Positions 1-64,000 of a stretch of DNA of 64,000 nucleotides are shown here, piece after piece (positions within the stretch are counted from its first letter, which is position 1; each line of letters opens with the position of its first letter). The notes under the pieces are model-generated. The model was not told the DNA's origin. It was given only the letters and a program-made list of their open reading frames with translations, and searched no databases. Source of the stretch: Styela clava (lineage: Eukaryota; Chordata; Ascidiacea; Stolidobranchia; Styelidae). The stretch covers positions 15,934,001-15,998,000 of the forward strand of contig NC_135251.1 in NCBI RefSeq assembly GCF_964204865.1. The letters are read 5' to 3'. The position numbers were made by a program, and so were the translations under genes.

Positions 1-26
1 CAAGGGTTCAAGTCCCTTATCGGGCG
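1..26 (+). tRNA. tRNA-Lys 3' end, cut by the window edge
   Basis: Bases 48-73 of the tRNA: last variable-loop base, T arm AAGGG/CCCTT with loop TTCAAGT, acceptor strand ATCGGGC and discriminator G. The anticodon lies outside the window. The matching intact gene in the next unit is 10138-10210. Confidence 0.75.
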
Positions 27-965
27 CCTCTTTGTTCCGGGAAGGTTCAATTTGTAAAAAAGATCACGCATTAAAGAATATGTCCTTAGTTCCAACGCAG
101 ACCGTAGCCCGGTTACCACAGCCGGTGGGGCGTCTTTGTTCCGGGAAGATTAGATTGTGTATAGCTGGCGTTGGACATAGCAAAATGCACAAACACACTT
201 ATAATTGTATTAGCTGCTAAATCATTGACTTTTATCATCCGTTATATCTTTTGTTTCAATTAATGCAGACCGTAGCCCATTTTGCTCAATTGGTAAAGTG
301 TTGAAATTTTCATCCAACGATCAAGGAGTCAAGTGCGCTATCGGGCGCCTCTTTGTTCCGGAATAGTTCAATTTGTAAAAATAGATCACGCTGAGTAGAT
401 TAACGTTAGATTGTGTATAGCTGGTGTTGGACATAGCACAATGAACAATCACACTTATAATTGTATTAGCTGCTTAATAAACAGATTCCGACGATCCGGT
501 ATATGTTTCGTTTAACGCGGACCGTAGCCCGGTTAGCTCAGTCGGTAGAGTTACCTCAGTCGGTAGAGCGTCTTTGTTCCGGGAAGATTGGATTGTGTAT
601 AGATGGCGTTGGACATAGCAAAATGCACAAACACACTTATAATTGTATTAGCTGCTAAATCGTTGACTTTTATCATCCGTTATGTCTTTTGATTTAATGC
701 AGACCGTAGCCCGGTTAGCTCAATCGGTAGAGTGTTGAAATTTTTATCCAACGATCAAGGAGTCAAGTGCGCTATCGGGCGCCTCTTTGTTCCGGAAAGG
801 TTCAATTTGTAAAAATAGGTCACGCTGAGAAGATTAACGTTAGATTGTGTATATCTGGTGTTGGACATAGCACAATGCACAAACACACTTATTTATACTT
901 GTATTAGCTGCTAAAATCATTCATTTTTATCATTTGTTATGTCTTTTGTTTTAATGCAGACCGTA

Positions 966-1150
966 GCCCGGTTAGCTCAATCGGTAGAGTGTTGAACTTT
1001 TTATCCAACGATCCAACGATCTTCACCCTGAAATATGGCCAATTTATAATTTAATTTATTGCAATTTGTATGTTTGTGCCTATTTTAAGTATGGTTAGAA
1101 ATAAACTACTGATTACTGATTACTGAAGTAGTCAAGTGCGCTATCGGGCG
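966..1150 (+). pseudogene. tRNA-Lys pseudogene interrupted by a 112-bp insertion
   Basis: A copy of the destroyed-T-arm class (compare the uninterrupted 4578-4650) split in its variable loop. The insert, about 1014-1125, is unrelated to the array and ends in short repeats of ATTACTG. Same insertion in the later units at 11149-11333 and 26341-26525. Confidence 0.75.
1014..1125 (+). mobile_element. 112-bp AT-rich insert with (ATTACTG)n end; possible short retroelement fragment
   Basis: Non-array DNA containing CTTCACCCTGAAATATGG, an AT-rich middle and a right end of about two and a half ATTACTG repeats. A terminal microsatellite is typical of the 3' end of many LINEs and SINEs, so a 5'-truncated element is possible. 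I recognise no family. No clear flanking target duplication is seen; CCAACGAT is repeated only at the left edge. Also at about 11197-11308 and 26389-26500. Confidence 0.45.
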
Positions 1151-1479
1151 CCTCTTTGTTCCGGAAAGGTTCAATTTGTAAAAATAAATCACGCTGAGAA
1201 GATTCACGTTAGATTGTGTATAGCTGGTGTTGGACATTGCACAATGCACAAACACACTTATAATTGTATTAGCTGCTTAATAAACAGATTCCGACGATCC
1301 GGTATGTGTTTCGTAACGCGGACCGTAGCCCGGTCAGCTCAGTCGGTAGAGCATCTTTGTTCCGGGAAGATTGGATTGTGTATAGATGGCGTTGGACATA
1401 TCACAATGCAGAAACACACTTATATGTGTATTAGCTGCTAAAACATTGATTTTTACCATGTGTTATATCTTTTGTTTTA

Positions 1480-2700
1480 ATGCAGACCGTAGCCCGGTTA
1501 GCTCAGTCGGTAGAGCGTTGGACTTTAAATCCAAAAAGATTTGATATACTAATCAATGAGGGGAAAGCGGAAAACATGATCGAAATCAAAAGGCTAAAAT
1601 CGCAGATCGAGATAATTCAAGATGAACGAAACAAAAGGGACATACTAATGGCAAAAATGAAAAACCTTGAAGAAGGGGAAAGGCCCACCAAAACCTTTTC
1701 TGAAAAAATCCGGCGCAGATCTAGGCAAACAACAATAGAAGAGCTGGTGACAAATGACCAAAATGTAAAAACAAATCCCGGGGAGATCATATCAATAGTA
1801 GAAAGTTTCTATAAGAACCTATGGGGCAAAGAGAATATAATGCAAGAACAATACCAAAATCGTTATCTAAACTTAATGGGCTCTTCTAAAATTGCAGATG
1901 AGGATAATATCATACTAGAAAGTTATATCTCACAAGAAGAGGTATATAGGGCGATAAAATTTATGGGAAACGATAAATCCCCAGGATTTGATGGTCTATC
2001 CAAAGAATTCTACCTGACCTTCTGGAACTCTATTAAAAAGCAATTTACTCAACTTATGAATAACATATTATATTTCGGCCAAATACCAAAATCTGCTACC
2101 ATAGCGAAAGTTAAATTAGTATACAAGAAGGGAGACAAAACAAATTTAAAAAATTGGAGGCCAATCACAACGCTCAATGCAGACTATAAAATCCTATCAA
2201 GAATCCTTGTTAAACGATTAGAACCAGTACTAAACAAAATCATAAGTCCATCCCAGAAATGCGCACTCAAGCAAAGATGTATGGAAGATGTTCATTATAA
2301 TATAGACGCTATAATTAGACACTGCAAAATGAAAAATATCCCCGGATCACTAATAATAATAGACAATCTTAAAGCTTTTGATAGAGTGAATCATGACTTC
2401 TTATTTAAAATTTTACATCAAATTGGACTTGGAAATAGAATCTCAAAAGCAATTAAAAGCATGTATTACGGAATTAAAAGTCAGGTAGATGTAAACGGTA
2501 GACTCACGCAGGAAATCGATATTAGACAAGGATGCCCGTTAAGTATGCTTCTCTACGCCATCAATATAGAGCCCCTAGCAAGATCGGTACAATTAAATGC
2601 CAATATACATGGTATCCAACTGGGGAGATACGAGCATAAACTCGATCAGTTTGCTGATGATATCACGTTCGCAGTTAGAGATCAATTATCTATTACATAA
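1480..2700 (+). pseudogene. Truncated reverse transcriptase of retrotransposon copy 1
   Basis: Reading frame of 406 codons. The first 18 residues come from the tRNA and its flank, the rest from the element. It keeps the fingers/palm segment with NWRPITTLNADYKILS, motif A (IIIDNLKAFDRV) and the catalytic FADD. Compared with copies 2 and 3 it has a 12-base in-frame deletion just before RQGCPLS, and a G-to-T change that makes TAA at 2698-2700 right after the FADD region. The connection, thumb and zinc-knuckle segments are deleted, so it cannot be an active polymerase. Confidence 0.85.
1492..1534 (+). pseudogene. tRNA-Lys 5' part, split by retrotransposon copy 1
   Basis: Bases 1-43 of a tRNA-Lys copy, ending at TCCAA of the anticodon stem, where the retrotransposon begins. 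The remaining 30 bases lie at 3393-3422, after an 11-bp duplication (TTTAAATCCAA) at 3382-3392. The anticodon loop reads CTTTAAA, giving anticodon TTA rather than TTT. Confidence 0.85.
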
Positions 2701-3422: not shown

Positions 3423-4270
3423 CCTCTTTGTTTCGGGAAGGTTCAATTTGTAAAAATGAACACGCCGTAGCCGTAGCCCGGTTACCACAGCCGGTGGAGC
3501 GTCTTTGTTCCGAGAAGATTAGATTGTGTATAGCTGGCGATGGACATAGCACAATGCACAAACACACTTAAAATTGTGTTAGCTGCTAAATCATTGATTT
3601 TTATCATCCGTCATGTCTTTTGTTTGACTGCACACCGTAGCCCGGTTACCACAGCCGGTGGAGCGTCTTTGTTCGGGGAAGATTAGATTGTGTATAGCTG
3701 GTGTTGGACATAGCAAATTGCACAAACACACTTATAATTGTATTAGCTGCTAAATCATTGACTTTTATCATCCGTTATGTCTTTGGTTTTAATGCAGACC
3801 GTATCCCAGTTAGTTCAATCGGTAGAGTGTTGAAATTTTCATCCAACGATCAAGGAGTTAAGTGCGCTATCGGGCGCCTCTTTGTTCCGGAAAGGTTCAA
3901 TTTTTAAAAATGATCACGCATTAAAGACTATGTCCTTAGTTCCAACGCAGACCGTAGCCCGATTACCACAGCCGGGGGAGCGTCTTTGTTCCGAGAAGAT
4001 TATATTGTGTATAGCTGGCGATGGACATAGCACAATGCACAAACACACTTATAATAATATTAGCTGCTAATTCATTGATTTTTATCATCCGTCATGTCTT
4101 TTGTTTGACTGCACACCGTAGCCCGGTTAGCTCAGTCGGTAGAGCGTTAAACTTTTTATCCAACGATCAAGGAGTCAAGTGCGCTAACACAAACACACTT
4201 ATAATTGTATTAGCTGCTAAATCATAGATTTTTATCATCCGTCATGTCTTTTGCTTCAATGCGGACCGTG

Positions 4271-4343
4271 GCCCGGTTAGCTCAGTCGGTAGAGCGTTGG
4301 ACTTTTAATCCAACGGTCAAGGGTTCAAGTCCCTTATCGGGCG
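4271..4343 (+). tRNA. tRNA-Lys: tRNA-Lys(TTT), consensus copy
   Basis: Carries lysine for AAA/AAG codons. The 73-nt cloverleaf is complete: acceptor GCCCGGT/ATCGGGC (one G-U pair), D arm GCTC/GAGC with loop AGTCGGTA, anticodon stem TTGGA/TCCAA with loop CTTTTAA (anticodon TTT at bases 34-36), variable loop CGGTC, T arm AAGGG/CCCTT with loop TTCAAGT, discriminator G. The A box (TAGCTCAGTCGG) and B box (GGTTCAAGTCC) are intact. There is no intron and no encoded CCA, as usual for a nuclear gene. The 3' flank is CCTCTTTG, with only three Ts, so a nearby pol III terminator is weak or absent. Confidence 0.93.
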
Positions 4344-5124
4344 CCTCTTTGTTCCGGGAAGGTTCAATTTGTAAAAAAGATCACGCATTAAATAATACGC
4401 AGACCGTAGCCCGGTTACCACAGCCGGTGGAGCGTCTTTGTTCCGGGAAGATTAGATTGTGTATAAGCTGGCGTTGGACATAGCACAATGCATAAACACA
4501 CTTATTTATACTTGTATTAGCTGCTAAATCATTCATTTTTATCATTTGTTATGTCTTTTGTTTTAATGCAGACCGTAGCCCGGTTAGCTCAATCGGTAGA
4601 GTGTTGAACTTTTTATCCAACGATCAAGTAGTCAAGTGCGCTATCGGGCGCCTCTTTGTTCCGGAAAGGTTCAATTTGTAAAAATAAATCACGCTGAGAA
4701 GATTCACGTTAGATTGTGTATAGCTGGTGTTGGACATTGCACAATGCACAAACACACTTATAATTGTATTAGCTGCCTAATAAACAGATTCCGACGATCC
4801 GGTATGTGTTTCGTTTAACGCGGACCGTAGCCCGGTTAGCTCAATCGGTAGAGCGTCTTTGTTCCGGGAAGATTGGATTGTGTATAGATGGCGTTGGACA
4901 TATCACAATGCAGAAACACACTTATATGTGTATTAGCTGCTAAAACATTGATTTTTACCATGTGTTATATCTTTTGTTCTAATGCAGACCGTAGCCCGGT
5001 TAGCTCAGTCGGTAGAGCGTTGGACTTTTAATAGCACAATGCACAAACACACTTATAATTGTATTAGCTGCAAAATTTTTCATTTTTATCATCCGTTATG
5101 TCTTTTGTTTTAACGCGGACCGTA

Positions 5125-5197
5125 GCCCGTTTAGCTCAGTCGGTAGAGCGTTAGAATTTTAATCCAACGGTCAAGGGTTCAAGTCCCTGATCGGGCG
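5125..5197 (+). tRNA. tRNA-Lys(TTT), degenerate variant with T7 terminator
   Basis: Anticodon TTT is kept, but the acceptor has GCCCGTT (T-T mismatch), the anticodon stem is TTAGA against TCCAA, the loop starts with A, and the T stem ends CCCTG. Followed by CC and seven Ts. Three stem mismatches make a functional tRNA doubtful. Twin: 20315-20387. Confidence 0.6.
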
Positions 5198-5440
5198 CCT
5201 TTTTTTGCGGAAAGGATCTATTTGTAAAAAAGATCACGCAGTAAAGAATATGTCCTTAGTTCCAACACAGAACGTAGTCCGGTCACCACAGCCGGTGGAG
5301 CGTCTTTGTTCCGAGAAGATTAGATTGTGTATAGCTGGCGATGGACGTAGCACAATGCACAAATACACTTATAATTGTATTAGCTGCTAATTCATTGATT
5401 TTTATCATCCGTCATGTCTTTTGTTTGACTGCACACCGTA

Positions 5441-5513
5441 GCCCGGTTAGCTCAGTCGGTAGAGCGTTGGACTTTTAATCCAACGGTCAAGGGTTCAAGT
5501 CCCTTATCGGGCG
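5441..5513 (+). tRNA. tRNA-Lys: tRNA-Lys(TTT), consensus copy
   Basis: Identical over 73 nt to the copy at 4271. The upstream flank is GACTGCACACCGTA; the 3' flank CCTCTTTG lacks a T4 run. Twin in the next unit: 20631-20703. Confidence 0.92.
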
Positions 5514-5757
5514 CCTCTTTGTTCCGGGAAGGTTCAATTTGTAAAAAAGATCACGCATTACAGAATATGTCCATAGTTCCAACGCAGACCGTAGCCCGGT
5601 TACCACAGAATGTGGAGCGTCTTTGTTCCGAAAAGATTAGATTGTGTATAGCTGGCGATGGACGTAGCACAATGCACAAACACACTTATAATTGTATTAG
5701 CTGCTAATTCATTGATTTTTATCATCCGTCATATCTATTGTTTGACTGCACACCGTA

Positions 5758-5830
5758 GCCCGGTTAGCTCAGTCGGTAGAGCGTTGGACTTTTAATCCAA
5801 CGGTCAAGGGTTCAAGTCCCTTATCGGGCG
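5758..5830 (+). tRNA. tRNA-Lys: tRNA-Lys(TTT), consensus copy
   Basis: Exact consensus, 317 bp after the previous full copy. One tRNA 5' fragment (5594) lies between them, which defines the 317-bp dimer. No T4 run directly downstream. Twin: 20948-21020. Confidence 0.92.
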
Positions 5831-6395
5831 CCTCTTTGTTCCGGGAGGGTTCAATTTGTAAAAAAGATCACCCATTAAAGAATATGTCCTTAGTTCCAAC
5901 GCAGACCGTAGCCCGGTTACCACAGCCGGTGGAGCGTCTTTGTTCCGGGAAGATTAGATTGTGTATAGCTGGCGTTGGACATAGCAAAATGCACAAACAC
6001 ACTTATAATTGTATTAGCTGCTAAATCATTGACTTTTATCGTCCGTTATATCTTTTGTTCCAATTAATGCAGACCGTAGCCCATTTAGCTCAATCGGTAG
6101 AGTGTTAAAATTTTCATCCATCGATCAAGGAGTCAAGTGCGCTATCGGGCGCCTCTTTGTTCCGGAATGGTTTAATTTTTAAAAAAGATCACGCATTAAA
6201 GAATATGTCCTTAGTTCCAACGCAGACTGTAGCCCGATTACCACAGCCGGGGGAGCGTCTTTGTTCCGGGAAGATTAGATTGTGTATAGCTGGCGTTGGA
6301 CATATCACAATGCAGAAACACACTTATATGTGTATTAGCTGCTAAAACATTTATTTTTACTATCTGTTATATCTTTTGTTTTAATGCAGACCGTA

Positions 6396-6468
6396 CCCCG
6401 GTTAGCTCAGTCGGTAGAGCGTTGGACTTTTAATCCAACGGTTAAGGGTTCAAGTCCCTTATCGGGCG
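6396..6468 (+). tRNA. tRNA-Lys(TTT) variant, C1 and T48
   Basis: All arms intact except base 1, which is C and cannot pair with C72. The variable loop is CGGTT. Followed by CCTTTTTTT, a strong pol III stop. Twin with the same two changes: 21586-21658. Confidence 0.7.
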
Positions 6469-7589
6469 CCTTTTTTTGCGGGAAGGATCAATTTTTAAAA
6501 AAGATCACACAGTAAAGAATATGTCCTTATTTCCAACGCAGACCGTAGCCCGGTTACCACAGCCGGTGGAGCGTCTTTGTTCCGAGAAGATTAGATTGTG
6601 TATAGCTGGCGATTGACATAGCACAATGCACAAACCCACTTATAATTGTATTAGCTGCTAATTCATTGATTTTTATCATCCGTCATGTCTTTTGTTTGAC
6701 TGCACACCGTAGCCCGGTTAGCTCAGTCGGTAGAGCGTTGGAATTTTAATCCAACGGTTAAGGGTTCAAGTCCCTTTGTTCCGGGAAGGTTCAATTTGTA
6801 AAAAAGATCACGCATTAAAGAATATGTCCTTTGTTCCAACGCAGACCGTAGCCCGGTTCCACAGCCGGTGGAGCGTCTTTGTTCCGGGAAGATTAGATTG
6901 TGTATAGCTGGCGTTGGACATAGCAAAATGCACAAACACACTTATAATTGTTTTAGCTGCTAAATCATTGACTTTTATCATCCGTTATATCTTTTGTTTC
7001 AATTAATGCAGACCGTAGCCCGTTTAGCTCAATCGGTAGAGTGTTGAAATTTTCATCCGACGATCAAGGAGTCAAGTGCGCTATCGGGCGCCTCTTTGTT
7101 CCGGAATGGTTTAATTTTTAAAAAAGATCACGCATTAAAGAATATGTCCTTAGTTCCAAAGCAGACCGTAGCCCGGTTACCACAGCCGGTGGAGCGTCTT
7201 TGTTCCGGGAAGATTAGATTGTGTATAGCTGGCGTTGGACATAGCAAAATGCACAAACACACTTATAATTGTATTAGCTGCTAAATCGTTGACTTTTATC
7301 ATCCGTTATGTCTTTTGATTTAATGCAGACCGTAGCCCGGTTAGCTCAATCGGTAGAATGTTGAAATTTTTATCCAACGATCAAGGAGTCAAGTGCGCTA
7401 TCGGGCGCCTCTTTGTTCCGGAAAGTTTCAATTTGTGAAAATAGATCACGCAGAGAAGATTAACGTTAGATTGTATATAGCTGGTGTTGGACATAGCACA
7501 ATGCACAAACACACTTATAATTGTGTTAGCTGCAAAATTTTTTCTTTTTTTTATCATCCGTTATGTCTTTTGTTTTAACGCGGACCGTA

Positions 7590-7662
7590 GCCCGGTTAGC
7601 TCAGTCGGTAGAGCGTTGGACTTTTAATCCAACGGTCAAGGGTTCAAGTCCCTTATCGGGCG
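7590..7662 (+). tRNA. tRNA-Lys: tRNA-Lys(TTT), consensus copy with T6 terminator
   Basis: Exact consensus followed by CC and six Ts. A perfect tRNA plus a proper pol III terminator makes this one of the best candidates for an expressed gene in the array. Twin: 22780-22852 (seven Ts). Confidence 0.94.
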
Positions 7663-7904
7663 CCTTTTTTGCGGGAAGGATCTATTTGTAAAAAAGATCC
7701 CGCAGTAAAGAATATGTCCTTAGTTCCAACACAGGACGTAGTCCGGTTACCACAGCCGGTGGAGCGTCTTTGTTCCGAGAAGATTAGATTGTGTATAGCT
7801 GGCGATGGACGTAGCACAATGCACAAATACACTTATAATTGTATTAGCTGCTAATTCATTGATTTTTATCATCCGTCATGTCTTTTGTTTGACTGCACAC
7901 CGTA

Positions 7905-7977
7905 GCCCGGTTAGCTCAGTCGGTAGAGCGTTGGACTTTTAATCCAACGGTCAAGGGTTCAAGTCCCTTATCGGGCG
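7905..7977 (+). tRNA. tRNA-Lys: tRNA-Lys(TTT), consensus copy
   Basis: Exact consensus; 3' flank CCTCTTTG without a T4 run. Repeated at 18375, 23096 and 33568 within the same local context. Confidence 0.92.
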
Positions 7978-8221
7978 CCTCTTTGTTCCGGGAAGGTTCA
8001 ATTTGTAAAAAAGATCACGCATTAAAGAATATGTCCATAGTTCCAACGCAGACCGTAGCCCGGTTACCACAGCCGGTGGAGCGTCTTTGTTCAGAGAAGA
8101 TTAGATTGTGTATAGCTGGCGATGGACGTAGCACAATGCACAAACACACTTATAATTGTATTAGCTGCTAATTCATTGATTTTTATCATCCGTCATGTCT
8201 ATTGTTTGACTGCACACCGTA

Positions 8222-8294
8222 GCCCGGTTAGCTCAGTCGGTAGAGCGTTGGACTTTTAATCCAACGGTCAAGGGTTCAAGTCCCTTATCGGGCG
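8222..8294 (+). tRNA. tRNA-Lys: tRNA-Lys(TTT), consensus copy
   Basis: Exact consensus, 317 bp after 7905; no adjacent T4 run. Related copies in equivalent positions: 18692, 23413 and 33885. Confidence 0.92.
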
Positions 8295-8789
8295 CCTCTT
8301 TGTTCCGGGAAGGTTCAATTTGTAAAAAAGATCACGCATTAAAGAATATGTCCTTAGTTCCAACGCAGACCGTAGCCCGGTTACCACAGCCGGTGGAGCG
8401 TCTTTGTTCGGGAAGATTAGATTGTGTATAGCTTGCGTTGGACATAGCAAAATGCACAAACACACTTATAATTGTATTAGCTGCTAAATCATTGATTTTT
8501 ATCGTCCGTTATGTCTTTTGTTTTAATGCAGACCGTGGCCCGGTTAGCTCAAATGGTAGAGTGTTAAACTTTTTATCCAACGATCAAGGAGTCAAGTGCG
8601 CTATCGGGCGCCTCTTTGTTCCGGAAAGTTTCAATTTGTAAAAATAGATCACGCTGAGAAGATTAACGTTAGATTGTATACAGCTGGTGTTGGACATAGC
8701 ACAATGCACAAACACACTTATAATTTTATTAGCTGCAACATTTTTCATTTTTATCATCCGTTATGTCTTTTGTTTTAACGCGGACCGTA

Positions 8790-8862
8790 GCCCGGTTAGC
8801 TCAGTCGGTAGAGCGTTGGACTTTTAATCCAACGATCAAGGGTTCAAGTCCCTGATCGGGCG
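8790..8862 (+). tRNA. tRNA-Lys(TTT) variant with T7 terminator
   Basis: Differs from consensus in the variable loop (CGATC) and T stem (CCCTG, so pair 49-65 is A-G). Anticodon arm and D arm are intact, and seven Ts follow. Probably foldable. Twin: 23982-24054. Confidence 0.72.
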
Positions 8863-9821
8863 CCTTTTTTTGCGGAAAGGATCTATTTGTAAAAAAGATC
8901 ACGCAGTAAAGAATATGTCCTTAGTTCCAACGCAGACGTAGCCCGGTTACCACAGCCGCTGGAGCGTCTTTGTTCCGAGAAGATTAGATTGTGTATAGCT
9001 GGCGATAGACATAGCACAATGCAAAACACACTTATAATTGTGTTAGCTGCTAAATCATTGATTTTTATAATCCGTTATGTCTTTGGTTTTAATGCAGACC
9101 GTAGCCCAGTTAGTTCAATCGGTAGAGTGTTGAAATTTTCATCCAACGATCAAGGAGTCAAGTGCGCTATCGGGCGCCTCTTTGTTCTGGAAAGGTTCAA
9201 TTTTTAAAAAAGATCACGCATTAAAGACTATGTCCTTAGTTCCAACGCAGACCGTAGCCCGATTACCACAGCCGGGGGAGCGTCTTTGTTTCGAGAAGAA
9301 TATATTGTGTATAGCTGGCGATGGACATAGCACAATGCACAAACACACTTATAATAGTATTAGCTGCTAATTCATTGATTTTTATCATCCGTCATGTCTT
9401 TTGTTTGACTGCACACCGTAGCCCGGTTAGCTCAGTCGGTAGAGCGTTAAACTTTTTATCCAACGATCAAGGAGTCAAGTGCGCTAACACAAACACACTT
9501 ATAATTGTATTAGCTGCTAAATCATAGATTTTTATCGTCTGTTATGTCTTTTGTTTTAATGCAGACCGTAGCCCGGTTAGCTCAATCGGTGGAGTGTTAA
9601 ACTTTTTATACAACGATCAAGGAGTCAAGTGCGCTATCGGGCGCCCTTTGTTCCGGAAATGTTCAATTTGTAAAAATAGATCACGCTGAGAAGATTAACG
9701 TTAGATTGTGTATAGCTGGTGTTGGACATAGCACAATGCACAAACACACTTATAATTGTATTAGCTGCAAAATTTTTGATTTTTATCATCCGTTATGTCT
9801 TTTGTTTTAACGCGGACCGTA

Positions 9822-9894
9822 GCCCGGTTAGCTCAGTCGGAAGATCGTTGGACTTTTAATCCAACGGTCAAGGGTTCAAGTCCCTTATCGGGCA
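9822..9894 (+). tRNA. tRNA-Lys(TTT) variant with damaged D arm and discriminator A
   Basis: The D arm reads GCTCAGTCGGAAGATC, breaking the GCTC/GAGC stem, and base 73 is A instead of G. Anticodon and T arms are intact and T7 follows. Likely a pseudogene despite its terminator. Twin: 25014-25086. Confidence 0.6.
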
Positions 9895-10137
9895 CCTTTT
9901 TTTGCGGGAAGGATCTATTTGTAAAAAAGATCCCGCAGTAAAGAATATGTCCTTAGTTCCAACACAGAACGTAGCCCGGTTACCACAGCCGGTGGAGCGT
10001 CTTTGTTCCGAGAAGATTAGGTTGTGTATTGCTGGCGATGGACGTAGCACAATGCACAAATACACCTATAATTGTATTAGCTGCTAATTCATTGATTTTT
10101 ATCATCCGTCATGTCTTTTGTTTGACTGCACACCGTA

Positions 10138-10210
10138 GCCCGGTTAGCTCAGTCGGTAGAGCGTTGGACTTTTAATCCAACGGTCAAGGGTTCAAGTCCC
10201 TTATCGGGCG
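10138..10210 (+). tRNA. tRNA-Lys: tRNA-Lys(TTT), consensus copy
   Basis: Exact consensus; 3' flank CCTCTTTG. Position equivalent to the partial tRNA at the window start and to 25330-25402. Confidence 0.92.
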
Positions 10211-11662
10211 CCTCTTTGTTCCGGAAAGGTTCAATTTGTAAAAAAGATCACGCATTAAAGAATATGTCCTTAGTTCCAACGCAGACCGTAGCCCGGTTAC
10301 CACAGCCGGTGGGGCGTCTTTGTTCCGGGAAGATTAGATTGTGTATAGCTGGCGTTGGACATAGCAAAATGCACAAACACACTTATAATTGTATTAGCTG
10401 CTAAATCATTGACTTTTATCATCCGTTATATCTTTTGTTTCAATTAATGCAGACCGTAGCCCATTTTGCTCAATTGGTAAAGTGTTGAAATTTTCATCCA
10501 ACGATCAAGGAGTCAAGTGCGCTATCGGGCGCCTCTTTGTTCCGGAATAGTTCAATTTGTAAAAATAGATCACGCTGAGTAGATTAACGTTAGATTGTGT
10601 ATAGCTGGTGTTGGACATAGCACAATGAACAATCACACTTATAATTGTATTAGCTGCTTAATAAACAGATTCCGACGATCCGGTATATGTTTCGTTTAAC
10701 GCGGACCGTAGCCCGGTTAGCTCAGTCGGTAGAGTTACCTCAGTCGGTAGAGCGTCTTTGTTCCGGGAAGATTGGATTGTGTATAGATGGCGTTGGACAT
10801 AGCAAAATGCACAAACACACTTATAATTGTATTAGCTGCTAAATCGTTGACTTTTATCATCCGTTATGTCTTTTGATTTAATGCAGACCGTAGCCCGGTT
10901 AGCTCAATCGGTAGAGTGTTGAAATTTTTATCCAACGATCAAGGAGTCAAGTGCGCTATCGGGCGCCTCTTTGTTCCGGAAAGGTTCAATTTGTAAAAAT
11001 AGGTCACGCTGAGAAGATTAACGTTAGATTGTGTATATCTGGTGTTGGACATAGCACAATGCACAAACACACTTATTTATACTTGTATTAGCTGCTAAAT
11101 CATTCATTTTTATCATTTGTTATGTCTTTTGTTTTAATGCAGACCGTAGCCCGGTTAGCTCAATCGGTAGAGTGTTGAACTTTTTATCCAACGATCCAAC
11201 GATCTTCACCCTGAAATATGGCCAATTTATAATTTAATTTATTGCAATTTGTATGTTTGTGCCTATTTTAAGTATGGTTAGAAATAAACTACTGATTACT
11301 GATTACTGAAGTAGTCAAGTGCGCTATCGGGCGCCTCTTTGTTCCGGAAAGGTTCAATTTGTAAAAATAAATCACGCTGAGAAAATTCACGTTAGATTGT
11401 GTATAGCTGGTGTTGGACATTGCACAATGCACAAACACACTTATAATTGTATTAGCTGCTTAATAAACAGATTCCGACGATCCGGTATGTGTTTCGTAAC
11501 GCGGACCGTAGCCCGGTCAGCTCAGTCGGTAGAGCATCTTTGTTCCGGGAAGATTGGATTGTGTATAGATGGCGTTGGACATATCACAATGCAGAAACAC
11601 ACTTATATGTGTATTAGCTGCTAAAACATTGATTTTTACCATGTGTTATATCTTTTGTTTTA

Positions 11663-14227: not shown

Positions 14228-14649
14228 CGCAATCCACCATAAACAAAAGCATATCTGCCCAAGTGGACTCTGCAATTTTATTCATTTTTTATGTCGGAAA
14301 TACCATCACATATTAAGCGGACGTGATGAATCGGAAGCTTCACGGTGGATGTCATGCTGTGTGCGTGTTAAGCGTCACGCAGTATGTACGGAAGCCGGGG
14401 GGGCGGAAGTTGAGCTATGCTATGCATGGTGCAGACGGAAGCCCTGGGCGAAAGTTATGCTGTGACATACAGTGTATACCGAACCCCGGGGTGGAAGTTT
14501 GTGCTGTGCAATGGCGCGGCAGATACTGAAGCCTCCATAAGTTTATGACTGCTGCTTATGCAGTGGCATGCTTATGAAGCGTTATACCGATATGACACGG
14601 ATATGACGTGGCATTAGACACTGATCTGTGCCTTGGAAAATTCTGATCC

Positions 14650-14691
<42 letters not shown>

Positions 14692-14695
14692 ATAA
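11718..14695 (+). mobile_element. L1/Tx1-type retrotransposon, copy 2 (5'-truncated)
   Basis: A 2,978-bp element: reverse transcriptase coding region, 3' UTR, 38-base poly(A) at 14652-14689 and TAATAA. Flanked by the 11-bp duplication TTTAAATCCAA (11707-11717 and 14696-14706), bases 33-43 of the host tRNA. ORF1 and the N-terminal endonuclease domain expected for a full L1/Tx1 element are absent, as expected from incomplete reverse transcription at insertion. The flanks are those of copies 1 and 3. Confidence 0.92.
14228..14651 (+). other. Retrotransposon 3' UTR with four imperfect repeats
   Basis: GC-richer than its surroundings. Four related segments begin at about 14332, 14389, 14436 and 14480. 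Three start CGGAAGC and the fourth CGAACCCC; each continues with a GG-AAGT-like stretch and a TGCTGTG or TATGC stretch, with a period of 45-57 bp. No open frame is maintained. It may hold the structure the reverse transcriptase recognises at the RNA 3' end, but that is inference. The same region is in copy 1 (about 2930-3353) and copy 3 (29420-29843). Confidence 0.65.
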
Positions 14696-14706
14696 TTTAA
14701 ATCCAA

Positions 14707-14736
14707 CGGTCAAAGGTTCAAGTCCCTTATCGGGCG
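14707..14736 (+). pseudogene. tRNA-Lys 3' part, downstream of retrotransposon copy 2
   Basis: Bases 44-73 of the split tRNA. The T stem has G51 changed to A (AAAGG). Same change at 29900-29929, absent at 3393-3422. Confidence 0.82.
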
Positions 14737-15584
14737 CCTCTTTGTTTCGGGAAGGTTCAATTTGTAAAAATGAACACGCCGTAGCCGTATCCCGGTTACC
14801 ACAGCCGGTGGAGCGTCTTTGTTCCGAGAAGATTAGATTGTGTATAGCTGGCGATGGACATAGCACAATGCACAAACACACTTATAATTGTGTTAGCTGC
14901 TAAATCATTGATTTTTATCATCCGTCATGTCTTTTGTTTGACTGCACACCGTAGCCCGGTTACCACAGCCGGTGGAGCGTCTTTGTTCGGGGAAGATTAG
15001 ATTGTGTATAGCTGGTGTTGGACATAGAAAATTGCACAAACACACTTATAATTGTATTAGCTGCTAAATCATTGACTTTTATCATCCGTTATGTCTTTGG
15101 TTTTAATGCAGACCGTATCCCAGTTAGTTCAATCGGTAGAGTGTTGAAATTTTCATCCAACGATCAAGGAGTTAAGTGCGCTATCGGGCGCCTCTTTGTT
15201 CCGGAAAGGTTCAATTTTTAAAAATGATCACGCATTAAAGACTATGTCCTTAGTTCCAACGCAGACCGTAGCCCGATTACCACAGCCGGGGGAGCGTCTT
15301 TGTTCCGAGAAGATTATATTGTGTATAGCTGGCGATGGACATAGCACAATGCACAAACACACTTATAATAGTATTAGCTGCTAATTCATTGATTTTTATC
15401 ATCCGTCATGTCTTTTGTTTGACTGCACACCGTAGCCCGGTTAGCTCAGTCGGTAGAGCGTTAAACTTTTTATCCAACGATCAAGGAGTCAAGTGCGCTA
15501 ACACAAACACACTTATAATTGTATTAGCTGCTAAATCATAGATTTTTATCATCCGTCATGTCTTTTGCTTCAATGCGGACCGTG

Positions 15585-15657
15585 GCCCGGTTAGCTCAGT
15601 CGGTAGAGCGTTGGACTTTTAATCCAACGGTCAAGGGTTCAAGTCCCTTATCGGGCG
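15585..15657 (+). tRNA. tRNA-Lys: tRNA-Lys(TTT), consensus copy
   Basis: Exact consensus, preceded by GCGGACCGTG. The local context equals 4271, 19461 and 30778. No T4 run adjacent. Confidence 0.92.
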
Positions 15658-16307: not shown

Positions 16308-16380
16308 GCCCGGTTAGCTCAGTCGGTAGAGCGTTGGACTTTTAATCCAACGGTCAAGGGTTCAAGTCCCTTATCGGGCG
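16308..16380 (+). tRNA. tRNA-Lys: tRNA-Lys(TTT), consensus copy
   Basis: Exact consensus. This is the intact form of the copies truncated at 4994 and 20184: upstream DNA matches, but those two break off after CTTTTAAT. Twin: 31501-31573. Confidence 0.92.
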
Positions 16381-29841: not shown

Positions 29842-29884
<43 letters not shown>

Positions 29885-55510: not shown

Positions 55511-55793
55511 CCTCTTTGTTTCGGGAAGGTTCAATTTGTAAAAATTAACACGCATTAAAGAATACGCAGCCGTAGCCCGGTTACCACAGCCGGTGGAGCG
55601 TCTTTGTTCCGGGAAGATTAGATTGCGTATAACTGGCGTTGGACATAGCACAATGCACAAACACACTTATAATTGTATTAGCTGCTAAATCATCGATTTT
55701 TATCGTCCTTTATGTCTTTTGTTTTAATGCAGACGGTAGCCCGGTTAGCTCAATCGGTAGAGTGTTAAACTTTTTATCCAACGATCAAGGAGT

Positions 55794-56183
55794 TCTTCTC
55801 GGAACAAAGACGCTCCAGCGGCTGTGGTAACCGGGCTACGTCTGCGTTGGAACTAAGGACATATTCTTTACTGCGTGATCTTTTTTACAAATAGATTCTT
55901 CCCGCAAAAAAGGCGCCCGATAAGGGACTTGAACCCTTGACCGTTGGATTAAAAGTCCAACGCTCTACCGACTGAGCTAACCGGGCTACGGTACGCGTTA
56001 AAACAAAAGACATAACGGATGATAAGAATGAAAATTTTTGCAGCTAATACAATTATAAGTGTGTTTGTGCATTGTGCTATGTCCAACACCAGCTGTATAC
56101 AATCTAACGTTAATCTTCTCAGCGTGATCTATTTTTACAAATTGAAATTTTCCGGAACAAAGAGGCGCCCGATAGCGCACTTG
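55794..56183. other. Asymmetric centre (390 bp) of the palindrome
   Basis: At 55793/55794 the + strand switches from ATCAAGGAG inside a tRNA pseudogene to TTCTTCTCGGAAC, which is spacer in reverse orientation. The two sources share at most a base or two at the join. The 390 bp have no partner on the left side and contain one tRNA 5' fragment and one intact - strand tRNA. This is the layout of an inverted duplication with a short unpaired loop. Confidence 0.88.
55914..55986 (-). tRNA. tRNA-Lys: tRNA-Lys(TTT), consensus copy with T6 terminator, reverse strand
   Basis: Exact consensus on the - strand, with six Ts after it (read as As on +). It lies in the unpaired centre of the palindrome and so has no mirror copy. 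Confidence 0.94.
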
Positions 56184-56466
56184 ACTCCTTGATCGTTGGA
56201 TAAAAAGTTTAACACTCTACCGATTGAGCTAACCGGGCTACCGTCTGCATTAAAACAAAAGACATAAAGGACGATAAAAATCAATGATTTAGCAGCTAAT
56301 ACAATTATAAGTGTGTTTGTGCATTGTGCTATGTCCAACGCCAGTTATACGCAATCTAATCTTCCCGGAACAAAGACGCTCCACCGGCTGTGGTAACCGG
56401 GCTACGGCTGCGTATTCTTTAATGCGTGTTAATTTTTACAAATTGAACCTTCCCGAAACAAAGAGG

Positions 56467-56539
56467 CGCCCGATAAGGGACTTGAACCCTTGACCGTCGG
56501 ATTAAAAGTCCAACGCTCTACCGACTGAGCTAACCGGGC
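56467..56539 (-). tRNA. tRNA-Lys: tRNA-Lys(TTT), near-consensus copy, reverse strand
   Basis: Only change: anticodon stem TCCGA (T-G wobble at pair 28-42). The T arm is intact, unlike the mirror copy 55438. Confidence 0.85.
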
Positions 56540-57187
56540 TACGGTGTGAATTGAAACAAAAGATATAACACATGGTAAAAATCAATGTTTTAGCAGCTAA
56601 TACACATATAAGTGTGTTTCTGCATTGTGATATGTCCAACGCCATCTATACACAATCCAATCTTCCCGGAACAAAGACGCTCTATCGACTGAGCTAACCG
56701 GGCCACGGTCCGCGTTAAACGAAACACATACCGGATCGTCGGAATCTGTTTATTAAGCAGCTAATGCAATTATAAGTGGGTTTGTGCATTGTGCAATGTC
56801 CAACACCAGTTATACACAATCTAACGTGAATCTTCTCAGCGTGATTTATTTTTACAAATTGAACTTTTCCGGAACAAAGAGGCGCCCGATAGCGCACTTG
56901 ACTACTTGATCGTTGGATAAAAAGTTCAACACTCTACCGATTGATCTAACCGTCTACGGTCTGCATTAAAACAAAAGACATAACAAATGATAAAAATGAA
57001 TGATTTAGCAGCTAATACAAGTATAAATAAGTGTGTTTATGCATTGTGCTATGTCCAACGCCAGCTTATACACAATCTAATCTTCCCGGAACAAAGACGC
57101 TCCACCGGCTGTGGTAACCGGGCTACGGTCTGCGTATTATTTAATGCTTGATCTTTTTTAAAATTGAACCTTCCCGGAACAAAGAGG

Positions 57188-57260
57188 CGCCCGATAAGGG
57201 ACTTGAACCCTTGACCGTTGGATTAAAAGTCCAACGCTCTACCGACTGAGCTAACCGGGC
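57188..57260 (-). tRNA. tRNA-Lys: tRNA-Lys(TTT), consensus copy, reverse strand
   Basis: Exact consensus; mirror of 54717. No T4 run adjacent. Confidence 0.92.
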
Positions 57261-58609
57261 CACGGTCCGCGTTAAAGCAAAACACATAACGGATGATAAA
57301 AATCAATGATTTTGCAGCTAATACAATTATAAGTGTGTTTGTGCATTGTGCTATGTCCAACACCAGCTATACACAATCTAACGTTGATCTTCTCAGCGTG
57401 ACCTATTTTTACAAATTGAACCTTTCCGGAACAAAGATGCGCCCGATAGCGCACTTGACTCCTTGATCGTTGGATAAAAAGTTCAACACTCTACCGATTA
57501 AGCTAACCGTGCTACGGTCCGCATTAAAATAAAAAGACATAACAGATGATAAAAATGAATGATTTAGCAGCTAATACAATTATAAATAGGTGCGTTTGTG
57601 CATTGTGCTATGTCCAACGCCAGCTATACACAATCAAACGTTAATCTTCTCAGCGTGATCTATTTTTACAAATTGAACCTTTCCGGAACAAAGAGGCGCC
57701 CGATAGCGCACTTGACTCCTTGATCGTTGGATAAAAATTTCAACACTCTACCGATTGAGCTAACTGGGCTACGGTCTGCATTAAAACCAAAGACATAACG
57801 GATGATAAAAGTCAATGATTTAGCAGCTAATACAATTATAAGTGTGTTTGTGCAATTTGCTATGTCCAACGCCATCTATACACAATTCAATCTTCCCGGA
57901 ACAAAGACGCTCTACCGACTGAGGTAACTCTACCGACTGAGCTAACCGGGCTACGGTCCGCGTTAAACGAAACATATACCGGATCGTCGGAATCTGTTTA
58001 TTAAGCAGCTAATACAATTATAAGTGTGATTGTGCATTGTGCTATGTCCAACACCAGCTATACACAATCTAACGTTAATCTTCTCAGCGTGATTTATGTT
58101 TACAAATTGAACTATTCCGGAACAAAGGGGCGCCCGATAGCGCACTTGACTCCTTGATCGTTGGATGAAAACTTCAACACTCTACCGATTGAGCTAAATG
58201 GGCTACGGTCTGCATTAAAACCAAAGACATAACGGATGATAAAAGTCAATGATTTAGCAGCTAATACAATTATAAGTGTCTTTGTGCAATTTGCTATGTC
58301 CAACACCAGCTATACACAATCTAATCTTCCCGGAACAAAGACGCTCCACCGGCTGTGGTAACCGGGCTACGGTGTGCAGTCAAACAAAAGACATGACTGA
58401 TGATAAAAATCAATGATTTAGCAGCTAATACAATTATAAGTGTGTTTGTGCATTGTGCTATGTCCATCGCCAGCTATATACAATCTATTCTTCTCGGAAC
58501 AAAGACGCTCCAGCGGCTGTGGTAACCGGGCTACGTCTGCGTTGGAACTAAAGACATATTCTTTACTGCGTGATCTTTTTTACAAATAGATCCTTCCCGC
58601 AAAAAAAGG

Positions 58610-58682
58610 CGCCCGACAAGGGACTTGAACCCTTGACCGTTGGATTAAAAGTCCAACGCTCTACCGACTGAGCTAACCGGGC
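58610..58682 (-). tRNA. tRNA-Lys: tRNA-Lys(TTT), near-consensus copy with T7 terminator, reverse strand
   Basis: A66 is G (acceptor end T-G wobble); otherwise consensus. It belongs to the 303-bp unit absent from the left arm. Confidence 0.87.
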
Positions 58683-58912
58683 TACGGTACGCGTTAAAAC
58701 AAAAGACATAACGGATGATAAGAATGAAAATTTTTGCAATAAGTGTGTTTGTGCATTGTGCTATGTCCATCGCCAGCTATACACAATCTAATCTTCTCGG
58801 AACAAAGACGCTACAGCGGCTGTGGTAACCGGGCTACGTCTGCGTTGGAACTAGGGACATATTCTTTACTGCGTAATCTTTTTTACACATAGATCCTTCC
58901 CGCAAAAAAAGG

Positions 58913-58985
58913 CGCCCGATAAGGGACTTGAACCCTTGACCGTTGGATTAAAAGTCCAACGCTATACCGACTGAGCTAACCGGGC
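58913..58985 (-). tRNA. tRNA-Lys(TTT) variant, TATAGC D stem, T7 terminator, reverse strand
   Basis: G22 to T; mirror of 53295. Confidence 0.76.
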
Positions 58986-59213
58986 TACGGTCCGCGTTAA
59001 AACAAAAGACATAACGGATGATAAAAATGAAAAATTTTGCAGCTAATACAATTATAAGTGTGTTTGTGCATTGTGCTATGTCCAACACCAGCTGTATACA
59101 ATCTAATCTTCCCAGAACAAAGACGCTCCACCGGCTGTGGTAACCGGGCTACGGTCTGCGTATTATTTAATGCTTGATCTTTTTTAAAATTGAACCTTCC
59201 CGGAACAAAGAGG

Positions 59214-59286
59214 CGCCCGATAAGGGACTTGAACCCTTGACCGTTGGATTAAAAGTCCAACGCTCTACCGACTGGGCTAACCGGGC
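59214..59286 (-). tRNA. tRNA-Lys(TTT) variant, C12 in D stem, reverse strand
   Basis: Mirror of 52994, with the same D-stem mismatch. Confidence 0.76.
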
Positions 59287-59935
59287 CACGGTCCGCATTA
59301 AAGCAAAAGACATAACGGATGGTAAAAATCAATGTTTTAGCAGCTAAGACACATATAAGTGTGTTTCTGCATTGTGATATGTCCAACGCCATCTATACAC
59401 AATCCAATCTTCCCGGAACAAAGACGCTCTACCGACTGAGCTAACCGGGCCACGGTCCGCGTTAAACGAAACACATACCGGATCGTCGGAATCTGTTTAT
59501 TAAGCAGCTAATACAATTATAAGTGTGTTTGTGCATTGTGCAATGTCCAACACCAGTTATACACAATCTAACGTGAATCTTCTCAGCGTGATTTATTTTT
59601 ACAAATTGAACCTTTCCGGAACAAAGAGGCGCCCGATAACGCACTTGACTACTTGATCGTTGGATAAAAAGTTCAACACTCTACCGATTGATCTAACCGT
59701 CTACGGTCTGCATTAAAACAAAAGACATAACAAATGATAAAAATGAATGATTTAGCAGCTAATACAAGTATAAATAAGTGTGTTTATGCATTGTGCTATG
59801 TCCAACGCCCGCTTATACACAATCTAATCTTCCCGGAACAAAGACGCTCCACCGGCTGTGGTAACCGGGCTACGGTCTGCGTATTAATTAATGCGTGATC
59901 TTTTTTACAAATTGAACCTTCCCGGAACAAAGAGG

Positions 59936-60008
59936 CGCCCGATAAGGGACTTGAACCCTTGACCGTTGGATTAAAAGTCCAACGCTCTACCGACTGAGCT
60001 AACCGGGC
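59936..60008 (-). tRNA. tRNA-Lys: tRNA-Lys(TTT), consensus copy, reverse strand
   Basis: Exact consensus; mirror of 52272. Confidence 0.92.
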
Positions 60009-60656
60009 TACGGTCTGAATTAAAACAAAAGATATAACACATGGTAAAAATCAATGTTTTAGCAGCTAATACACATATAAGTGTGTTTCTGCATTGTGAT
60101 ATGTCCAACGCCATCTATACACAATCCAATCTTCCCGGAACAAAGACGCTCTACCGACTGAGCTAACCGGGCTACGGTCCGCGTTAAACGAAACACATAC
60201 CGGATCGTCGGAATCTGTTTATTAAGCAGCTAATGCAACTATAAGTGTGTTTGTGCATTGTGCAATGTCCAACACCAGTTATACACAATCTAACGTGAAT
60301 CTTCTCAGCGTGATTTATTTTTACAAATTGAACCTTTCCGGAACAAAGAGGCGCCCGATAGCGCACTTGACTACTTGATCGTTGGATAAAAAGTTCAACA
60401 CTCTACCGATTGATCTAACCGTCTACGGTCTGCATTAAAACAAAAGACATAACAAATGATAAAAATGAATGATTTAGCAGCTAATACAAGTATAAATAAG
60501 TGTGTTTATTCATTGTGCTATGTCCAACGCCAGCTTATACACAATCTAATCTTCCCGGAACAAAGACGCTCCACCGGCTGTGGTAACCGGGCTACGGTCT
60601 GCGTATTATTTAATGCTTGAACTTTTTTAAAATTGAACCTTCCCGGAACAAAGAGG

Positions 60657-60729
60657 CGCCCGATAAGGGACTTGAACCCTTGACCGTTGGATTAAAAGTC
60701 CAACGCTCTACCGACTGAGCTAACCGGGC
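60657..60729 (-). tRNA. tRNA-Lys: tRNA-Lys(TTT), consensus copy, reverse strand
   Basis: Exact consensus; mirror of 51551. Confidence 0.92.
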
Positions 60730-62078
60730 CACGGTCCGCATTAAAGCAAAAGACATAACGGATGATAAAAATCAATGATTTTGCAGCTAAAACAATTATA
60801 AGTGTGTTTGTGCATTGTGCTATGTCCAACACCAGCTATACACAATCTAACGTTGATCTTCTCAGCGTGACCTATTTTTACAAATTGAACCTTTCCGGAA
60901 CAAAGATGCGCCCGATAGCGCACTTGACTCCTTGATCGTTGGATAAAAAGTTCAACACTCTACCGATTAAGCTAACCGTGCTACGGTCCGCATTAAAATA
61001 AAAAGACATAACAGATGATAAAAATGAATGATTTAGCAGCTAATACAATTATAAATAGGTGTGTTTGTGCATTGTGCTATGTCCAACGCCAGCTATACAC
61101 AATCAAACGTTAATCTTCTCAGCGTGATCTATTTTTACAAATTGAACCTTTCCGGAACAAAGAGGCGCCCGATAGCGCACTTGACTCCTTGATCGTTGGA
61201 TAAAAATTTCAACACTCTACCGATTGAGCTAACTGGGCTACGGTCTGCATTAAAACCAAAGACATAACGGATGATAAAAGTCAATGATTTAGCAGCTAAT
61301 ACAATTATAAGTGTGTTTGTGCAATTTGCTATGTCCAACGCCATCTATACACAATTCAATCTTCCCGGAACAAAGACGCTCTACCGACTGAGGTAACTCT
61401 ACCGACTGAGCTAACCGGGCTACGGTCCGCGTTAAACGAAACATATACCGGATCGTCGGAATCTGTTTATTAAGCAGCTAATACAATTATAAGTGTGATT
61501 GTGCATTGTGCTATGTCCAACACCAGCTATACACAATCTAACGTTAATCTTCTCAGCGTGATTTATGTTTACAAATTGAACTATTCCGGAACAAAGGGGC
61601 GCCCGATAGCGCACTTGACTCCTTGATCGTTGGATGAAAACTTCAACACTCTACCGATTGAGCTAACTGGGCTACGGTCTGCATTAAAACCAAAGACATA
61701 ACGGATGATAAAAGTCAATGATTTAGCAGCTAATACAATTATAAGTGTCTTTGTGCAATTTGCTATGTCCAACACCAGCTATACACAATCTAATCTTCCC
61801 GGAACAAAGACGCTCCACCGGCTGTGGTAACCGGGCTACGGTGTGCAGTCAAACAAAAGACATGACTGATGATAAAAATCAATGATTTAGCAGCTAATAC
61901 AATTATAAGTGTGTTTGTGCATTGTGCTATGTCCATCGCCAGCTATATACAATCTATTCTTCTCGGAACAAAGACGCTCCAGCGGCTGTGGTAACCGGGC
62001 TACGTCTGCGTTGGAACTAAGGACATATTCTTTACTGCGTGATCTTTTTTACAAATAGATCTTTCCCGCAAAAAAAGG

Positions 62079-62151
62079 CGCCCGATAAGGGACTTGAACC
62101 CTTGACCGTTGGATTAAAAGTCCAACGCTCTACCGACTGAGCTAACCGGGC
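62079..62151 (-). tRNA. tRNA-Lys: tRNA-Lys(TTT), consensus copy with T7 terminator, reverse strand
   Basis: Exact consensus; mirror of 50129. Confidence 0.94.
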
Positions 62152-63652
62152 TACGGTACGCGTTAAAACAAAAGACATAACGGATGATAAGAATGAAAAT
62201 TTTTGCAATAAGTGTGTTTGTGCATTGTGCTATGTCCATCGCCAGCTATACACAATCTAATCTTCTCGGAACAAAGACGCTACAGCGGCTGTGGTAACCG
62301 GGCCACGGTCCGCATTAAAGCAAAAGACATAACGGATGATAAAAATCAATGATTTTGCAGCTAAAACAATTATAAGTGTGTTTGTGCATTGTGCTATGTC
62401 CAACACCAGCTATACACAATCTAACGTTGATCTTCTCAGCGTGACCTATTTTTACAAATTGAACCTTTCCGGAACAAAGATGCGCCCGATAGCGCACTTG
62501 ACTCCTTGATCGTTGGATAAAAAGTTCAACACTTTACCGATTAAGCTAACCGTGCTACGGTCCGCATTAAAATAAAAAGACATAACAGATGATAAAAATG
62601 AATGATTTAGCAGCTAATACAATTATAAATAGGTGTGTTTGTGCATTGTGCTATGTCCAACGCCAGCTATACACAATCAAACGTTAATCTTCTCAGCGTG
62701 ATCTATTTTTACAAATTGAACCTTTCCGGAACAAAGAGGCGCCCGATAGCGCACTTGACTCCTTGATCGTTGGATAAAAATTTCAACACTCTACCGATTG
62801 AGCTAACTGGGCTACGGTCTGCATTAAAACCAAAGACATAACGGATGATAAAAGTCAATGATTTAGCAGCTAATACAATTATAAGTGTGTTTGTGCAATT
62901 TGCTATGTCCAACGCCATCTATACACAATTCAATCTTCCCGGAACAAAGACGCTCTACCGACTGAGGTAACTCTACCGACTGAGCTAACCGGGCTACGGT
63001 CCGCGTTAAACGAAACATATACCGGATCGTCGGAATCTGTTTATTAAGCAGCTAATACAATTATAAGTGTGATTGTGCATTGTGCTATGTCCAACACCAG
63101 CTATACACAATCTAACGTTAATCTTCTCAGCGTGATTTATGTTTACAAATTGAACTATTCCGGAACAAAGGGGCGCCCGATAGCGCACTTGACTCCTTGA
63201 TCGTTGGATGAAAACTTCAACACTCTACCGATTGAGCTAACTGGGCTACGGTCTGCATTAAAACCAAAGACATAACGGATGATAAAAGTCAATGATTTAG
63301 CAGCTAATACAATTATAAGTGTCTTTGTGCAATTTGCTATGTCCAACACCAGCTATACACAATTTAATCTTCCCGGAACAAAGACGCTCCACCGGCTGTG
63401 GTAACCGGGCTACGGTGTGCAGTCAAACAAAAGACATGACTGATGATAAAAATCAATGATTTAGCAGCTAATACAATTATAAGTGTGTTTGTGCATTGTG
63501 CTATGTCCATCGCCAGCTATATACAATCTATTCTTCTCGGAACAAAGACGCTCCAGCGGCTGTGGTAACCGGGCTACGTCTGCGTTGGAACTAAGGACAT
63601 ATTCTTTACTGCGTGATCTTTTTTACAAATAGATCTTTCCCGCAAAAAAAGG

Positions 63653-63725
63653 CGCCCGATAAGGGACTTGAACCCTTGACCGTTGGATTAAAAGTCCAAC
63701 GCTCTACCGACTGAGCTAACCGGGC
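63653..63725 (-). tRNA. tRNA-Lys: tRNA-Lys(TTT), consensus copy with T7 terminator, reverse strand
   Basis: Exact consensus; mirror of 48556, with one extra T in the terminator. Confidence 0.94.
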
Positions 63726-64000
63726 TACGGTACGCGTTAAAACAAAAGACATAACGGATGATAAGAATGAAAATTTTTGCAATAAGTGTGTTTGTGCATT
63801 GTGCTATGTCCATCGCCAGCTATACACAATCTAATCTTCTCGGAACAAAGACGCTACAGCGGCTGTGGTAACCGGGCCACGGTCCGCATTAAAGCAAAAG
63901 ACATAACGGATGATAAAAATCAATGATTTTGCAGCTAAAACAATTATAAGTGTGTTTGTGCATTGTGCTATGTCCAACACCAGCTATACACAATCTAACG

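Follow-up and report, generated by a model that had tools for sequence, protein, structure and literature searches.

Is a long block of copies of one transfer RNA (tRNA) gene, many of them broken, an amplified gene, a satellite or both, and how did a retrotransposon come to lie inside some of its tRNAs? These questions are raised by a stretch of 64,000 nucleotides from the ascidian Styela clava (C2:15934001-15998000 in the surveyed genome of 376.6 Mb and 379 contigs; C and L numbers are our labels for contigs and loci), which we call the window and which is filled by tandem copies of tRNA-Lys(TTT) and by a long interspersed nuclear element (LINE). We think that this is a satellite-like array in which selection keeps some of the copies intact, and that it was invaded by a LINE of the L1 type that targets the anticodon arm and was then duplicated together with its guest; we give this reading a probability of about 0.7. 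Exact tRNA patterns had no match in the collections of viral contigs and of other genome contigs, so that all related loci discussed here come from the window's own genome.

The tRNA-Lys(TTT) array

Within the window ARAGORN predicts 72 tRNAs, of which 62 lie on the forward and 10 on the reverse strand; 71 are Lys(TTT) and one has the anticodon TTA, and 71 of the 72 have both cloverleaf and anticodon intact. Rfam reports 81 tRNA matches at its gathering score, 40 of which tie at the top score of 74.6 bits, and 40 copies are identical letter for letter. Among the 324 monomers that have a tRNA start, the T arm is good in 71 and dead in 80; a further 139 consist of a 5' fragment, and 34 belong to none of these classes. 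The initial annotation, which had estimated about 69 full-length copies, 80 copies with a dead T arm and 130 5' fragments, was therefore close on all three counts. Its description of the window as a single tRNA gene and its relics stands as far as the array is concerned; it had overlooked 7,804 bp that consist of three copies of one LINE insertion.

The array extends past both ends of the window. Its monomer starts span about 124 kb, from C2:15882305 to C2:16005935, the window being roughly half of it, and no monomers occur in the 80 kb to the left or the 60 kb to the right that were fetched outside its two edge stretches. ARAGORN finds at least 147 tRNAs in the fetched pieces (72 in the window, 69 and 6 in the others), a lower bound because genes split at the ends of a stretch escape the program. 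The whole lies near the middle of a contig of 31.34 Mb, a position that might suggest a centromere, and the loci on either side of it (L010 and L017) contain frames that by eye resemble basic helix-loop-helix proteins.

A satellite-like higher-order structure had also been claimed, and it is borne out by a 15,190-bp unit present in two overlapping copies and by an inversion (Table 1), the orientation of the array reverting about 2.9 kb past the end of the window. Within the forward part, fragments are most often followed by the next monomer at a distance of 164 bp (87 cases) and copies with a dead T arm at 252 bp (36 cases); for intact copies the commonest distances are 137 to 153 bp. Since one example each of the 164-bp and 152-bp units aligns to parts of a 252-bp unit, the shorter units would fit a longer ancestral unit that has suffered internal deletions. 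A dead tRNA copy at about 1020-1131 carries an insert of about 110 bp, further copies of which, near 11203 and 26395, repeat with the higher-order unit; a similar sequence in the opposite orientation is seen by eye at about 7983-8070 of locus L016.

Inversions and 15-kb units that are 99.5% identical are difficult to assemble, and the copy number could have been inflated in this way. We consider this most improbable, because the array is bounded on both sides by flanks free of monomers within a single 31-Mb contig, and because its LINE copies can be told apart by a deletion and by the length of their poly(A).

Gene, satellite or both

The more delicate question is whether the intact copies are still genes. 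We compared nucleotides 25-50 of the tRNA, a region unused in separating intact from dead copies, with the flanks, after collapsing identical 243-mers (102 of 137 intact and 87 of 145 dead sequences are distinct). In intact copies heterozygosity is 0.026 in this region, against 0.127 upstream and 0.096 downstream, that is about four times lower, and none of the 26 sites has a minor allele at 5% or more (permutation with random flank columns, P = 1e-4). In dead copies the value is 0.065, with 0.070 upstream and 0.166 downstream. The intact copies thus appear to be constrained far more than the dead ones. Two results count against so simple a view: the dead copies too lie below their pooled flanks (P = 0.015), so that part of the conservation may have other causes, and at least 14 exact Lys(TTT) patterns, among the matches listed, lie outside the array on C3, C13, C16 and C18, so that the genome has further sources of this tRNA.

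A functional tRNA gene would be expected to have a terminator for RNA polymerase III, a run of T, shortly after its 3' end. A run of six or seven T begins 2 nucleotides past the tRNA end in 31 of the 71 intact window copies, and 32 of the 71 have no T4 within 180 nucleotides downstream; over the fetched array, its last 4-kb piece left aside, T4 or longer occurs within 12 nucleotides of 57 of 138 intact copies. One could thus propose that the array is a dead satellite derived from a tRNA, the intact copies of which look conserved through recent homogenisation: many higher-order copies are nearly identical, 40 of the 71 intact copies lack the T run at 2 nucleotides, and Lys(TTT) genes exist elsewhere in the genome. 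Homogenisation, however, should act on the flanks equally, yet these are about four times more variable even after the collapse of identical 243-mers, and we regard this proposal as unlikely. The initial annotation had left the choice between a lysine-tRNA amplification, a satellite, or both; it is the last option that fits best, the 15-kb units, the inversion and the broken monomers speaking for a satellite, and the constraint on nucleotides 25-50 together with the T runs for probable genes.

A LINE in the anticodon loop

The three LINE blocks of the window are copies of one insertion into a tRNA anticodon loop, with TTTAAATCCAA on both sides. A target holding this stretch exists in the array, since the copy with anticodon TTA contains it; this nearly intact copy, if it were made into a tRNA, would read UAA stop codons. 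By our own count, the tRNA resumes at its nucleotide 33 on the 3' side of the window LINE. The window copies are a single insertion multiplied by duplication of the array, and the left part of the array holds two more LINE copies. Another insertion in the array (L016:6923) also lies in a Lys(TTT) anticodon loop, between repeats of the CGTTGGACTTTTAA form; it has a frame of 164 amino acids resembling open reading frame 1 (ORF1) and no ORF2, this frame being 76% alike over 72 bp to ORF1 of the window family.

The predicted protein identifies the element as an L1-type LINE with an APE-like endonuclease. Its reverse transcriptase is of the type lacking long terminal repeats (non-LTR; RVT_1, 5.9e-29) and matches human L1 ORF2p with values down to 9.9e-52, the match to R2 being weaker. 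The endonuclease was read from a copy on C9, because the window copies are truncated at their 5' end: its N-terminal part scores 25.6 bits with PF03372 (Exo_endo_phos; cut-off 24.5), and also 25.6 bits with PF14529, which is under the cut-off of 27.4. A zf-CCHC match in ORF1 likewise stays under its cut-off (18.8 bits against 20.8). A poly(A) tail and a short target-site duplication are present, though some sites do not allow them to be resolved.

Table 1. Features of the window and insertion sites of the LINE family in the genome.
Feature	Location	Strand	Evidence or repeats
Part of a tandem tRNA-Lys(TTT) array	1..64000	+ to about 55793, then -	ARAGORN, Rfam, monomer classes
Higher-order unit of 15,190 bp, in two copies that overlap (3630-19376, 18820-34572)	3630..34572	+	offset 15,190 bp; 99.53% identity
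Inverted part of the array	55793..64000	-	ARAGORN strands, sequence beyond the window
tRNA copy with anticodon TTA and a TTTAAATCCAA stretch	35857..35929	+	ARAGORN, sequence match
LINE copy 1, 5'-truncated, with internal deletion; its host tRNA starts at 1492 and is interrupted in the anticodon loop	1535..3381	+	TTTAAATCCAA at 1524-1534 and 3382-3392
LINE copy 2, 5'-truncated; open frame of 854 amino acids including upstream read-in; reverse transcriptase	11718..14695	+	TTTAAATCCAA at 11707-11717 and 14696-14706
LINE copy 3, the same as copy 2 in every letter of its coding part and 3' untranslated region	26910..29888	+	TTTAAATCCAA at 26899-26909 and 29889-29899
Poly(A)-only insertion in a Lys(TTT) anticodon loop	40032..40076	+	repeats CGTTGGACTTTTAA (40018-40031) and CGTTGGACCTTTAA (40077-40090)
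Lys-TTT, 5 ends, one event	C2 array		TTTAAATCCAA repeats
Cys-GCA, 4 ends, one event amplified in a tRNA-Cys cluster	C10		direct repeat TCGACTGC
Lys-CTT, 1 end	C9		direct repeat GCGTTGG
Ser-GCT, 1 end	C9		direct repeat TAATCC
Val, 1 end each	C4, C5		
Spacer beside tRNA genes, 3 ends, one event	C13		target-site duplication TAAAGAATA
Rearranged, without poly(A), 1 end	C13:18.573		

Insertion sites across the genome

A protein search of the genome gave 54 matches, 13 of them at 97-100% identity and 41 at 54-60%. A pattern for the 3' end of the family occurs at 17 places (the reversed control at none), which are the 99-100% scorers among the 41 matches of a search with the 3' untranslated region (UTR). 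All 17 flanks were read, and 13 of these 3' ends adjoin the 3' half of a tRNA (Lys, Ser, Val or Cys) cut in its anticodon arm. That the LINE is specific to tRNA-Lys(TTT) is ruled out by its copies in Ser, Val, Cys and Lys(CTT) genes.

Counted by site, the anticodon arm is hit in seven of nine resolved cases (C2, C4, C5, two on C9, the Cys site on C10, and C10:6871353), and four of the seven have clean direct repeats (Lys-TTT, Lys-CTT, Ser-GCT and Cys-GCA). The chance of such a score is 2e-22 if 10,000 tRNA genes are assumed, and 6e-11 even inside tRNA clusters, with a density taken from five cluster loci. Orientation is that of the tRNA in 11 of 11 insertions: the seven of the family itself, those in an Ile gene and in a Pro-like gene, and two in the array that are related or unassigned. 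In the seven insertions tabulated, which include unassigned or related Lys-TTT insertions and that in Ile, the tRNA sequence on the 3' side starts with nucleotide 24, 25, 25, 27, 32, 32 or 36; no common motif is seen by eye at these cut positions.

The record is less tidy than these figures might suggest, and several cases argue for caution. The nine judged sites all come from one genome, a site on C18 having been left out; one event on C13, now in three copies, falls in a spacer and not in a tRNA gene, and the copy at C13:18.573 is rearranged. At C10:6871353 the 5' end of the LINE joins the 5' half of a tRNA and the 3' end is lost, at C5 the tRNA half is present on the 3' side alone, and the two sides at C4 derive from different tRNA-Val genes. 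The 5' half at C10:6871353 is presumably that of a tRNA-Trp.

Related families serve as a control. We found 24 relatives with 3' UTRs 79-90% similar and read the flanks of 23, only two of which are clearly in tRNA genes: one in Ile(AAT), with the repeat GCGTCGTGC and the tRNA 5' half on the opposite side, and one in a gene that we take to be Pro-like. A relative at C16:4273784 ends in a stretch resembling a T arm, and the remaining flanks have no recognisable tRNA. One could therefore ask whether the family has any tRNA specificity at all, its insertions persisting chiefly in redundant tRNA clusters while selection purges the others. Every resolved site is indeed in a multicopy region, and one family member is in a spacer. 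We nevertheless hold this to be very unlikely: the anticodon arm is about 2% of cluster DNA and yet received seven of the nine sites, all in sense, and the relatives lie mostly outside tRNA genes.

On C4 and C6 the relatives are inserted in repeats of about 290 bp, either at ATTAAG-GTAAG or close to it. Because the units there carry ATTAAGGTAAG, a target of the spliced-leader type is the more likely one, and the repeats may be spliced-leader genes; the end of the Ciona leader ATTCTATTTGAATAAG, as given in the available part of its description (PMC7986045), resembles them. Sister LINE families thus appear at a site resembling a splice donor in spliced-leader-like repeats at L090 (C4 near 23.456 Mb) and L091 (C6 near 19.583 Mb). 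The flanks of the relatives on C4, C6 and C8 were also considered as 3' ends of small nuclear RNAs, and this was rejected, Rfam giving only weak matches at chance level.

Some observations stand apart. Four copies of one LINE insertion are found in a tRNA-Cys(GCA) cluster at L083-L087 (C10:6868-6884 kb), the genes of which are 445-475 bp apart. One 3' flank is common to L038, L042 and L067, and another to L045 and L082. C154, C191, C296 and other small contigs have about one tRNA per 45 kb, perhaps in a long repeated unit, and on C9 a frame matching Cellulose_synt lies about 2 kb ahead of a GH6 match on the same strand. Among animals the fusion of these two is a mark of tunicates, which makes a tunicate host probable.

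tRNA halves in the LINE leaders

Two copies, L051 on C4 and L053 on C13, begin with a piece of tRNA-Lys (nucleotides 15-33, 19/19, or 14-33, 19/20), followed by half of a tRNA-Ser and then by the LINE. Their leaders are identical to tRNA-Ser(GCT) over 40 of 40 nucleotides, and they share the junction between Ser half and LINE with the insertion found in the genome at L049, whose Ser half closes a stretch of 561 bp that matches (94%) sequence beside an intact Ser gene. A still deeper piece of the leader matches tRNA-Lys over 13-14 nucleotides only. The simplest reading may be serial 5' transduction: such stacked 5' halves from other genes suggest that the LINE RNA starts inside the tRNA gene that it interrupts.

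The same leaders could be produced by a reverse transcriptase that jumps onto cleaved tRNA halves as templates. They do stop near the anticodon, and R2 and R1 elements are known to jump between templates, as far as the excerpts available for these elements go. Against it, the Ser half of L051 and L053 stops at TAATCC (nucleotide 41), beyond the anticodon and exactly at the L049 junction, and we find template jumping a rather unlikely source of these leaders.

A scenario for the array and its LINE

The array would have evolved by unequal exchange, which produced the 15-kb higher-order units, the inversion and the broken monomers, while selection would have preserved a subset of its copies intact. 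A LINE family that is young, of the L1 type and equipped with an APE-like endonuclease may enter the anticodon arm of tRNA genes, in sense orientation, by target-primed reverse transcription, and duplications of the array would then multiply the insertion. As the cut positions from nucleotide 24 to 36 share no motif by eye, the LINE might find its target not through a sequence motif but through the RNA polymerase III (Pol III) machinery or through DNA exposed between boxes A and B. Its RNA would begin inside the interrupted tRNA gene, and a jump could take along the 5' tRNA half of the former host. A bolder version, that the element is a parasite of tRNA genes lodged between the Pol III boxes, transcribed from near the mature 5' end, with a leader that records its hosts and with sisters in genes for small RNAs, is one that we offer tentatively, at somewhat less than even odds.

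Comparison with known systems

LINEs specific to tRNA genes are already known; what looks new is an APE-type LINE in the anticodon arms of several isoacceptors that carries tRNA halves along, and we recognised no report of an APE-type LINE within this arm of several tRNA isoacceptors in our searches of an open-licence library. The systems that follow are compared as they appear in the portions available of the cited papers. Dewa is a member of the Tx1 group of LINEs. Like the window LINE, this target-specific zebrafish element is a non-LTR element aimed at a tRNA cluster, but its target is the spacer of tRNA-Leu (PMC3706591), whereas the window family uses the anticodon arm of several isoacceptors; none of the nine resolved sites of the window family was identified as a tRNA-Leu spacer. 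NeSL-1_TV (tRNA-Pro), LIN15_SM (tRNA-Arg) and LIN25_SM (tRNA-Glu) are LINEs with tRNA genes as their specific targets; they are related to NeSL, belong to the group with a restriction-like endonuclease and use one isoacceptor each (PMC4640811); the window family instead has a predicted APE-like domain and several isoacceptors. TRE5, TRE3, NLTR-A and NLTR-B of social amoebae are APE-type members of the L1 clade guided to tRNA genes; their insertion points lie outside the gene, at 2-64 bp on its upstream side or 40-150 bp on its downstream side (PMC5911963), whereas the window family is inside the gene at seven of nine sites. Dada elements, too, enter several tRNA genes, either near box A or in the region of the anticodon (PMC8869645), but they are DNA transposons, and those near the anticodon are opposite to the tRNA, whereas the window LINE is in sense and has a reverse transcriptase and poly(A). 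Finally, the arrays of Entamoeba are also tandem tRNA genes, in units of up to five with short tandem repeats in their spacers (PMC2652664); the array described here holds a single isoacceptor, accompanied by its systematic relics and by a LINE.

Implications

The array provides an assembled case of a tRNA gene that is becoming a satellite while some of its copies remain, as it seems, constrained, and also of LINE copies that would have been multiplied by duplication and not by retrotransposition. That one APE-type LINE family strikes varied tRNA genes with no sequence obviously common to them bears on how LINEs locate the genes of Pol III. If the leaders are indeed made of the tRNA halves of former hosts, the history of the donors of this LINE could be read from its sequence, and if the sister families do sit at spliced-leader-like repeats, this would point to a radiation across genes for small RNAs.

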